A stretch of 64,000 nt of DNA, from NCBI RefSeq assembly GCF_029815055.1, contig NZ_JAPPWA010000002.1, positions 1,116,001-1,180,000 of the forward strand, in the 5' to 3' direction. Numbering within the stretch: position 1 is the first letter of the stretch; the number at the start of each line of letters is the position of its first letter. The position numbers and the translations under genes were made by a program. Positions 18,300 to 43,980 of this stretch are shown here, piece by piece. Below the pieces are notes generated by a model. It did not search any database and was not told the origin of the DNA. It saw only the letters and a list, made by a program, of their open reading frames with translations. This stretch comes from Ignatzschineria sp. RMDPL8A (lineage in GTDB: Bacteria > Pseudomonadota > Gammaproteobacteria > Cardiobacteriales > Wohlfahrtiimonadaceae).

Positions 18300-18470
18300 A
18301 GGCGACAAACCTCGTTAGGTGAGGCTCCTATAGGGAGATACGTTACTGCCCAGAAACGTCGAGAGACACCAATGGGTTAGCAGAGAAAATCGAATTAAGG
18401 TTTCTTTAATGTAACTGGTTAAATGGAGCATTAACCGGCCCTATAGTGCTAAAACTTTACGAAGGGGGAT
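18300..18470 (+). ncRNA. M-box (ykoK) magnesium riboswitch
   Basis: The leader contains the conserved M-box blocks in order: TTAGGTGAGGCTCCTATA and GGGAGATACG (from 18315), CTGCCCAGAAACGTC, GACACCAATGGGTTAGCAGA, AATGTAACTGG, and the closing GTGCTAAAACTTTACGAAGG (to about 18466). These match the ykoK-leader consensus I know from B. subtilis. M-boxes fold around Mg2+ and turn off Mg transporters when magnesium is plentiful, and the next gene is an MgtE-type transporter. Edges are approximate. Confidence 0.92.
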
Positions 18471-18700
18471 CCTTCAAACATCGACTTTGAGCGTCTCATG
18501 TTGAGGCGACTCAGCCATCGTTGCGTCAATTTTGGTAAAACCTCCATCGCTATCGAATAAATATGCGAAAATAGAGCCCATTGTGAACGGCATCTATTTT
18601 TAGTCATTATTGATATCAAATTTATTGAGCTTTATTGATAATCAAGCTGCGCTCGAATTGTATAATTATATATTCGTGCTAAAAGATGAGGGAGTATCCT
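18471..18700 (+). other. Long leader between the M-box and mgtE
   Basis: About 230 nt of untranslated leader. A short GAAGG-GGGAT-CCTTC hairpin (18461-18475) and an imperfect GAGCGTCTC/GAGGCGACTC pairing (about 18491-18514) are seen, but no hairpin followed by a T-run. Control may therefore use Rho or translation rather than an intrinsic terminator. A 20-codon frame from the ATG near 18499 has no ribosome-binding site. Confidence 0.45.
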
Positions 18701-41915: not shown

Positions 41916-41942
41916 GCCCGTACCCTGAGTGCGGGCTTTTTT
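41916..41942 (+). terminator. Terminator after the Na/Pi gene
   Basis: GCCCGTAC-CCTGA-GTGCGGGC, an 8-bp stem with one wobble pair, then TTTTTT. The region from here to 42084 shows nothing else I can name. Confidence 0.88.
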
Positions 41943-42096: not shown

Positions 42097-43980
42097 GTGA
42101 AAAAGAGTAAGGAATCGAACAATCGTGGAAAGGGGCAGCCTAACAGAGGATTGACGTTGCCACTAGCGATGGAGTTTTCCATTTTAGAGAAAGATAATCC
42201 TGAATTTGGCCGTCATGTGGAAATTCCTAAAAATGGTTTTTTAACCTTTGTTGGCCCGAATGGCTCGGGGAAAAGTCATCTACTTCGCGGGCTTTTTGCA
42301 GCCTTTATGGAGAAAAAACGCAGCGGTGAGATGGGGCGGAAAAAGGTGCGCTTTCTCTCATCGGGGCGACTGATGGAAGATGATATTATCAAGCGTCGCG
42401 GACTGCTCGAAGAGTATCGAACCCTTCAAGAGCGGGCCGATGTACAGCTTAAAGTGCGGGCGCGTCTTCGTGAGAGTTTTAAGCGCGATATTAATCTGCA
42501 TTGGGGCATTAATGGACTAGAGGTTAATTTTGAGCATGAGATTCACCTCGATAAGCCGGAAAAACGCCTCGGGTATACCATCGGGCAGGAAGCCTCGGGG
42601 CTGGTGCACCTTGTCGGGCTTTTAACCGCGCTCTATAACGATGAGATCGGGGTACTGATTATTGACGAGCCGGAGATTTCACTCCATCCGCAATATCAAA
42701 ATTTTATTCTCCAAGAGATGCGCTCGGTGTGCGGTGAGCCCCGTTCGAACAATAATAAAAAGATTATTATTTTGGCCACCCATTCGCCAGAATTTTTAGA
42801 GCTTAAATATTTAGAAGAGGATATTTCTTCTTTTTGCGTTTGTGAAAATATTGCCAAAGGGCCGATCCAGATCACTGAGATGAAACCTGAATTTGAAGGC
42901 AGTACCTTTCTCTACCGCATCAGTTATCAGTATAAAAAAGCGCTCTTTGCGAAGACGATACTGCTAGTGGAAGGGGATACTGATGAGCTCATTTTACGCG
43001 GGCTTGCGGAAAAGCTTGAATATGACCTTGAATCCCGCGGGATTGAGATTGTTGCCGTGGGCAGTAAAGAGGATTTTCGCGCGGCGATGGCCTTTTTTAG
43101 AGAGATCAATAAAGAGGTGCAACTCCTTGCAGATATCGACTGGTTGGTGGACAAACCGAGCCAAATTGATGAGGTCTTTGGCTGGGATTTAGGCTTTCGT
43201 AAATCGGTCGAGGTGCTGTTATCCGAGCCGTGGCCCGATAATTACCGCATGCGCAACGCGCTCCGCAATCACTCGTATAGCTTTGGGCGCTATCGGGCCA
43301 TTTTAAATTATCTTAAACCCAAATTTGATCAAGAGCGGCTCAATACCCTAGAGGTAATCGCGTTTTTAGAGAAATCGGACTTTGATTATAACGAGCTAAA
43401 AAGTTTTGAAACGGCGCTTCGTCGCGTCTCATTTTGTGAATTATTACGGGATTCAACGGAGATGCAAGAACGTATGGATCGGCTTGAATCACGCGGGGCA
43501 TTTTTAATTCGTGTGGGTGAGATTGAGTCCTGTTATCTCTCGGATAGGGTACAGAAAAAGCGGCTCTGGGCCCATCAAGAATATCGCCTTATTCAGACGC
43601 TTCCGGTCAATCGCTTAGAGAAAAACTATGGTGATCTCATTCGTTGCCTGCAATATTGTGGCGATGAGCCTGAAAATATTGAGCTCCATATGCTGCACAA
43701 TCGCCTCAATTTGCTACTGATGAGCCTTAGTAATGATTATCAAAAAGGGCAAGATCTCTCCTTAAAACGCCATGTCTTTCAAGCCAATGAAGAGGGCATT
43801 TTTGAGGTGAAATCTTTGGGGGATGAAGGGGAAAAGGTGCGCATTGCGCTGCGTAAATCGATGTTCCCCGAGCTCTATTTTAGTTTAGTGTTTGCACTCA
43901 CCGATTCGCCCGTTGAGATTAAAAATAAAATTGATGACATTTTCCACCGCATGGGATTGCAGGTCACGCGGGGCAGGTAA
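42097..43980 (+). CDS. Orphan OLD-family AAA ATPase with TOPRIM nuclease domain
   Basis: A 627-aa protein. The N-terminal SMC/ABC-type ATPase has Walker A GPNGSGKS (53-60), a signature-like EASGLVHLVGLL (165-176), Walker B VLIIDEPEISLHP (186-198) and the H-loop ATHSPE (227-232). It is followed by a TOPRIM-like domain: ILLVEGDTDELILRGL (288-303, with the metal-binding Glu) and LLADID (343-348, the DxD motif). This is the OLD-endonuclease layout. A C-terminal half (about 360-627) is unrecognised. Start is GTG with AAGGAG 6 nt upstream. It stands alone, with no GajB-like helicase, methylase or second defence gene adjacent. Codon use looks like its neighbours'. A role in DNA repair or phage defence is inferred. 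Confidence 0.8.
   Translation: MKKSKESNNRGKGQPNRGLTLPLAMEFSILEKDNPEFGRHVEIPKNGFLTFVGPNGSGKSHLLRGLFAAFMEKKRSGEMGRKKVRFLSSGRLMEDDIIKRRGLLEEYRTLQERADVQLKVRARLRESFKRDINLHWGINGLEVNFEHEIHLDKPEKRLGYTIGQEASGLVHLVGLLTALYNDEIGVLIIDEPEISLHPQYQNFILQEMRSVCGEPRSNNNKKIIILATHSPEFLELKYLEEDISSFCVCENIAKGPIQITEMKPEFEGSTFLYRISYQYKKALFAKTILLVEGDTDELILRGLAEKLEYDLESRGIEIVAVGSKEDFRAAMAFFREINKEVQLLADIDWLVDKPSQIDEVFGWDLGFRKSVEVLLSEPWPDNYRMRNALRNHSYSFGRYRAILNYLKPKFDQERLNTLEVIAFLEKSDFDYNELKSFETALRRVSFCELLRDSTEMQERMDRLESRGAFLIRVGEIESCYLSDRVQKKRLWAHQEYRLIQTLPVNRLEKNYGDLIRCLQYCGDEPENIELHMLHNRLNLLLMSLSNDYQKGQDLSLKRHVFQANEEGIFEVKSLGDEGEKVRIALRKSMFPELYFSLVFALTDSPVEIKNKIDDIFHRMGLQVTRGR

Follow-up and report, generated by a model that had tools for sequence, protein, structure and literature searches.

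The window, by which we mean the whole 64,000-nucleotide stretch of Ignatzschineria sp. RMDPL8A DNA analysed here, carries at 42097-43980 a gene for an OLD-type protein that stands alone among metabolic genes. Its presence raises a simple question: does such a protein look after the DNA of its own cell, or does it protect the cell against phages? A sequence-only reading of the locus had left the choice between a repair nuclease and a single-gene defence.

A complete gene for an OLD-family ATPase-TOPRIM protein

The features on which the argument draws are the following (positions are those of the window).

41916..41936, + strand: terminator-like hairpin (8 pairs) with a T-run behind it, in the interval that separates the upstream and target genes; a consensus match only
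42097..43980, + strand: complete CDS of the OLD-family ATPase-TOPRIM protein, GTG start, 627 aa
42253..42276, + strand: Walker A, GPNGSGKS, residues 53-60; K59 invariant in 15/15 aligned rows
42589..42603, + strand: EASGL, residues 165-169, at the position of the ABC signature, its putative role; EASG invariant in 14/14 rows
42655..42675, + strand: Walker B, LIIDEPE, residues 187-193, with canonical Asp and Glu, 129 residues past Walker A
42970..42984, + strand: TOPRIM motif EGDTD, residues 292-296; E292 and D296 invariant in 15/15 rows
43132..43140, + strand: TOPRIM DxD, here DID (residues 346-348); D346 and D348 invariant in 15/15 rows
43159..43491, + strand: insertion within the TOPRIM domain, residues ~355-465; mostly helical in the models, with pLDDT <50 for much of it
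43516..43560, + strand: GxIE (residues 474-477) and K488; G474, E477 and K488 invariant in 15/15 rows
43669..43977, + strand: C-terminal tail, residues ~525-627, kept in the family; no sequence match in Pfam or among solved structures

The open reading frame is intact, with its stop codon at 43978-43980 and a Shine-Dalgarno-like AAGGAG a few bases 5′ of the GTG. The protein had been read as an OLD-type ATPase-TOPRIM protein with complete motifs, and this holds: Pfam recognizes AAA_21 (1.6e-18) and, at residues 283-348, OLD-like_TOPRIM (1.2e-15) in the 627-aa product, and both Walker motifs, EGDTD and DID are readable. It belongs to the OLD superfamily, with the motifs of an ABC ATPase in its N-terminal part and a C-terminal TOPRIM domain containing the glutamate, the DxD and further metal ligands. 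The canonical Walker B aspartate, D190, is found in 15/15 aligned rows. The acidic residues of the TOPRIM motifs are equally constant, which favours a nuclease.

The order and invariance of these residues suggest how they may be used. E292, D346 and D348 would bind metal A, D296 and E477 would bind metal B, and K488 would be the counterpart of R487/K562 of the studied OLD enzymes. By analogy with those enzymes, E477 is a candidate second-metal glutamate and K488 a candidate catalytic lysine (PMC7049728, PMC6755086). An invariant counterpart of their Ser/Thr ligand (S478, T506) was not found in the alignment, where the residue two before E477 is E, A, S or T.

Most of the C-terminal half is the remainder of the TOPRIM domain

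The C-terminal half had been described as unrecognized, with about 265 residues following the TOPRIM motifs; the count is in fact about 279 after the DxD. We compared solved structures with two fold models of middling quality, one of the whole protein (mean pLDDT 69.1) and one of residues 278-627 (63.4), built from 7 and 9 sequences, respectively. The best solved full-length match of the whole model was the Thermus scotoductus OLD protein (6p74), over residues 21-524 (Z 16.5, rmsd 4.8, 313 residues aligned); GajA also aligned (Z 14.9, rmsd 5.7, 361 residues). The model of residues 278-627 matched the C-terminal region of Xanthomonas campestris OLD (Z 13.7, rmsd 3.2, 158 residues), Burkholderia pseudomallei OLD (Z 13.2, rmsd 2.7, 149 residues) and Thermus OLD (Z 12.9, rmsd 2.6, 138 residues). 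These three TOPRIM matches are tied, and the best rows outside the OLD family lie far lower, at 7.3 or less. The retron Eco8 OLD protein (Z 7.3-8.5) and AriB (Z 6.3) rank below the OLD TOPRIMs, a ranking that is no proof of difference.

The models thus contain a TOPRIM domain, again favouring a nuclease, and nuclease activity of the 627-aa protein is predicted from this fold together with the invariant catalytic residues. Since the alignments with OLD nucleases run from residue 280 to ~534, most of the C-terminal part that could not be assigned at first is the remainder of the TOPRIM domain. The earlier description still fits the tail. Residues 525-627 gave no sequence match (the best, at E 0.46, was to a designed protein), and a Pfam scan of the tail across members produced a match in only 1/13, at 0.054.

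A rare clade that differs from the studied OLD classes

The family comprises 14 full-length lineages, including the window protein, to which a second copy from the same species (L010) can be added. Three lineages are plasmid-borne (Acinetobacter, Synechocystis pSYSM and Pseudosulfitobacter), eight lie on IMG/VR contigs (L017, L018, L019, L020, L021, L029, L030 and L031) and two further ones are in genomes G728 and G758. An Acinetobacter record (L016) has a shorter ORF. In a profile search of the collected loci, unsplit and uncut copies scored 589-972 bits and other AAA proteins at most 50 bits.

Four further copies are no longer intact: L014 (Vibrio plasmid), L015, L022 (prophage) and G025. 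L015 is interrupted by a frameshift, and in the G025 relative (L124:6508-9149), from another family of the same order, a transposase-like insertion interrupts the TOPRIM part. The copies at L014:4292-5781 and L022:7959-9844, although on different elements, both have a frameshift in the same short A-rich tract immediately ahead of the THS motif, which could reflect slippage, decay or a split of the product in two.

In a tree of 32 rows (14 family, 2 class 1, namely P2 and KS5 Old, 4 class 2 and 12 others), the 14 family rows form a single clade with 100/99 support, separate from P2/KS5 Old and from the four GajA-type proteins. It should be noted that the tree has long branches, including that of the window protein, whose position inside the clade is unsure. 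Within the clade the window protein has diverged furthest, at 26-31% identity over the two comparisons made (26-30% to the remaining lineages in one of them), and the region following its Walker A motif is shorter than that of its relatives, as might be seen in a degenerate relic under decay that has lost its nuclease function. A full ORF, the family residue at 21/21 tabulated motif positions and a dN/dS of ~0.02 (see below) leave this explanation with very little credibility.

The clade shares several features with class 1 OLD proteins (P2 Old, Thermus OLD, YbjD), namely a single isolated gene, an ABC ATPase followed by TOPRIM, and the succession of E, D, DxD, late E and then K/R. Its ATPase is different. 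The Thermus OLD ATPase contains an inserted four-helix dimerization domain, as described for class 1 (PMC7049728). Among the rows in which our script found both Walker motifs, the two are separated by 129 residues in the window protein and by 144-149 in the 13 remaining clade members (129-149 in 14/14), vs. 260 and 306 in P2 and KS5 Old, 258-275 in 3/4 class 2 proteins and 249-326 in 5/12 of the others. Judged by this length and by the fold model, the class 1 dimerization insert seems to be missing from the clade. Furthermore, Thermus OLD is reported to have a glutamate in Walker B, and the class 1 signature is called degenerate (PMC7049728), while the clade has the canonical aspartate and an invariant EASG.

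Further differences lie in the C-terminal half. By the residue numbers of the respective papers, the late glutamate lies 47 residues past D433 in Thermus OLD (E480) and 51 in B. pseudomallei OLD (D457-E508), compared to 129 past D348 for E477 of the window protein; the lysine or arginine follows 7 and 54 (E508-K562) residues later, respectively (PMC7049728, PMC6755086), compared to 11 for K488. The tail adds about 100 residues that class 1 proteins do not have. Class 1 has no helical domain in its TOPRIM region; the insertion of the window protein may be one, as it is mostly helical in the models, though with low confidence. Lastly, the clade does not group with class 1 in the tree, in which branches are long and class 1 is represented by two rows only.

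With class 2 (GajA of Gabija) the clade shares the TOPRIM fold and extra helices in the C-terminal half, but it differs in its compact ATPase and separate position in the tree. A UvrD-type helicase gene adjoins all four class 2 proteins of the tree, but none lies beside the target gene. The window protein misses at least one tested feature of class 1 and at least one of class 2.

PARIS (AriA-AriB) and the OLD effectors of retrons (Eco8, I-B) likewise have an ABC ATPase and a TOPRIM domain that work jointly. The two-gene form of class 4 (PARIS) does not apply, the window protein being encoded by one fused gene; since fused PARIS genes exist (PMC10568477), the one-gene state excludes the two-gene form only. 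As for class 3, the annotated and read neighbours include no reverse transcriptase and no Rfam ncRNA match was found near the gene, where an undescribed ncRNA may nevertheless lie. The AriA model of PADLOC matched the window protein with 74.6 bits (best stretch, residues 79-234). None of its Old, GajA or AriA models matched end to end, and among the 25 models listed the best stretches end by residue 353; the same kinds of model match 14/14 family members. The clade is a rare, mobile branch of the OLD superfamily with an architecture unlike those studied, combining a compact ATPase with a long insertion inside the TOPRIM domain.

Relatives are carried by plasmids and prophages

Four relatives are on plasmids, in Acinetobacter, Synechocystis (pSYSM), Pseudosulfitobacter and Vibrio. 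The Acinetobacter gene lies beside replication genes, and the broken copy on the Vibrio plasmid pVPH2 adjoins qnrVC6 and a DUF3265 gene. In two related prophages (L017 and L022), the gene is on the opposite strand between the genes for the head maturation protease and a neck protein; L029 is similarly placed between the head protease and major head protein genes. By eye, L018 adjoins tail and lysis-like genes. The neighbours of the L020 copy include genes for a phage-type primase and for an excisionase-type regulator, the copy of G728 has dus and an integrase gene within a few kb (the dus-integrase neighbourhood, L122), and an integrase gene is near L021. Some of these settings may be Mu-like, P4-like or an integron cassette.

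A recurring partner gene was sought in 18 neighbourhoods, and none appeared among the matches listed, apart from prophage or transposase genes in common and a small number of matches between two loci. Two neighbours, of ~243 and 240-251 aa, are common to the otherwise different loci L021:5504-7216 and L029:7174-8597 and may be shared cargo. Searches of phage records returned only distant Old matches (4 records), and none for L018. A DNA search of Escherichia coli genomes with the Vibrio copy as query gave no match.

The prophage protease-neck interval is a variable cargo site

We started from 77 loci with the prophage protease, of which 42 had a protease at least 60% identical and 39 of these also had the neck gene; the site is that of the IMG/VR prophages L127-L169. 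The gap between the two genes was short in 15/39 (209-257 bp, empty) and long in 24/39 (818-3707 bp, filled). Two of the 24 filled sites hold the family gene (L127 and L129, the contigs of L017 and L022).

Ten other cargo proteins from nine loci, picked by size and look, were scanned with PADLOC, whose PDC entries are candidate rather than proven systems. Six matched a model at E<=1e-4. For two the match spans almost the whole protein, namely PD-Lambda-2_C in L135 (residues 14-365 of 368) and PDC-S59 in L145 (residues 3-418 of 441). Partial matches were seen for an HNH protein like PDC-M68A (L134), AbiZ (L161, 5.7e-8) and PDC-M28C (L162). The sixth, at L128:4156-5967, is another AAA/OLD-like protein (604 aa) with weak matches to AriA, NsnB and GajA and no Pfam TOPRIM match. 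The remaining 4/10 scanned proteins had no PADLOC match, and some cargo, for example a ParA-like ATPase, is not defence-like. The interval is a variable cargo site for diverse genes, known or candidate defence families among them, and offers a further place to seek defence genes.

The plasmid copies, and in particular the one beside replication genes, could also be understood if the protein acted against plasmids or conjugation, or as an addiction-type toxin that stabilizes mobile elements, rather than against phages. We find this improbable, as no recurring antitoxin-like partner adjoins the gene among the matches listed, and several copies are in prophages, two of them in the cargo site that elsewhere holds known or candidate defence genes.

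A long-resident gene in a quiet chromosomal setting

The upstream gene (545 aa) presumably encodes a Na/phosphate cotransporter and the downstream gene (462 aa) a ferric-reductase-like protein. The hairpin at 41916-41936 would be consistent with the target gene being a separate transcription unit; promoter-like sites show no excess at the locus (3 vs. 4.9 in shuffled sequences). That the gene is solitary, with no helicase or defence gene adjacent, was confirmed by the neighbouring ORFs we read and by a PADLOC scan, in which 0/7 neighbouring proteins matched at E<=1e-5. No convincing repeats flank the gene, and a tRNA search of the 64-kb window found none, so that this mark of a mobile element is missing. 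Elsewhere in the window, at 18304-18474 (+ strand), is an M-box (magnesium) riboswitch, with 133.9 bits vs. a gathering score of 44.

The composition of the gene is host-like (GC 0.460, GC3 0.493), and its codon distance of 0.105 falls within the 0.066-0.177 of ten neighbouring genes, as the sequence-only reading had judged. The second copy in the species differs by 68 nucleotides but by only 4 residues, which shows that the ORF is real and not a chance one. The corresponding dN of 0.0034 and dS of 0.172 give a dN/dS of ~0.02 from two genomes, vs. 0.03-0.09 for three neighbours. The gene is thus under selection and long resident in the species.

Its distribution is very patchy nonetheless. Within the host's taxonomic family it is present in 2/2 genomes of the species (G000, G774) and in 0/16 other genomes, three of which have only weak, short ATPase matches (~1e-4). 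At the level of the order, a broken relative occurs in 1/14 genomes. At least 1/369 genomes of the class sample passes 1e-12, namely the window's own, and at least 3/398 of the phylum sample, window included; both counts are lower bounds, with 3 candidates scored per genome. In the 10/10 other family genomes that carry both flanking genes, these are on separate contigs or at least 776 kb apart, so no orthologous empty site is available and presence or absence was judged per genome. The gene is not universal, and this favours a mobile gene.

The lack of mobile-element marks, the host-like codons and the strong purifying selection suggest long retention of the gene and, possibly, a different role. 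One such role would be that of a stand-alone nuclease for upkeep of the cell's own DNA (repair, recombination or end processing), domesticated in the species. In addition to the codons and selection just described, its solitary position among metabolic genes and the alignment of the ABC part of the whole model with Rad50 and SMC heads (Z ~12) fit this explanation, and the archaeal OLD protein Cran1, described as a cell-cycle factor, provides a precedent for a cellular role (PMC12796447). On the other hand, the absence from 16/16 other family genomes, the very patchy presence elsewhere and the plasmid and prophage relatives speak against it, and the four broken copies (L014, L015, L022 and G025) are not what is expected of an upkeep gene. 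We consider the upkeep role unlikely, and between the two readings first proposed, defence is better supported than repair.

A probable single-gene defence

We therefore think it probable, with some reserve, that the target gene encodes an OLD-superfamily protein which by itself defends the cell against phages. The grounds are an OLD fold with an intact active site, no partner gene, a scattered distribution, and relatives found time and again in prophages and on plasmids, also at a site used by defence genes. Its quiet chromosomal setting in the host counts against this, as do the cargo genes that are not defence-like, the 4/10 scanned cargo proteins with no PADLOC match and the cellular role of Cran1.

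From these features we infer how defence might operate. The ABC ATPase would sense a state that arises upon infection and would gate a two-metal TOPRIM nuclease (metal A at E292, D346 and D348, metal B at D296 and E477, with K488 as the stabilizing lysine). Once released, the nuclease would cut nucleic acid, either DNA or tRNA, and the cutting would halt infection, probably through harm to the infected cell. For P2 Old, cleavage of host tRNA upon RecBC inhibition is reported (stated in PMC13261556, which cites earlier work), and DNA cleavage is also described for studied OLD enzymes (PMC7049728). Against the defence reading, the TOPRIM domain can be dispensable for phage effects, as described for YbjD (PMC13261556). 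Head-to-head pairing of the ATPases, as is usual for ABC proteins, is probable, given that the clade seems to have no large class 1 dimerizing insert and keeps the canonical Walker B aspartate and the SG of the signature. With the class 1 dimerizing domain apparently missing, the clade would be a natural experiment on ATP gating.

The locus had been put forward as something undescribed, but the kind is already known: single OLD-type proteins with an anti-phage effect have been published, namely P2 Old, IbfA and, when overexpressed, YbjD (PMC10568477, PMC12111858, PMC13261556). IbfA (518 aa) and HEC-04 are described as ATPase-TOPRIM fusions that act as single-protein defences, and the plasmid-borne IbfA alone gives a phage effect (PMC12111858). 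The likeness to IbfA, which is 109 aa shorter than the window protein, is one of domain make-up as described. Among the family plasmid matches listed (40 of 70 records), no plasmid named as coming from Salmonella or Escherichia appears.

In 2023 it was listed as an unanswered question whether one OLD protein can provide broad defence without a helicase, a retron or a second gene (PMC10568477). The clade offers small one-gene test cases for this, from several phyla and with all catalytic residues intact. It is conceivable, though on present evidence we would lean against it, that the clade represents an additional OLD immunity class in its own right, with one gene, a compact and canonically pairing ABC ATPase free of the dimerization insert, a newly placed TOPRIM insertion and an extra C-terminal domain that possibly senses phage, and that it moves as exchangeable cargo on plasmids, prophages and satellites. 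The phylogeny of Yang et al. 2025 includes 11 uncharacterized OLD clades (U1-U11), of which U5, U6, U7, U9 and U10 are described as mainly bacterial (PMC12796447), and the clade may be one of these 11.
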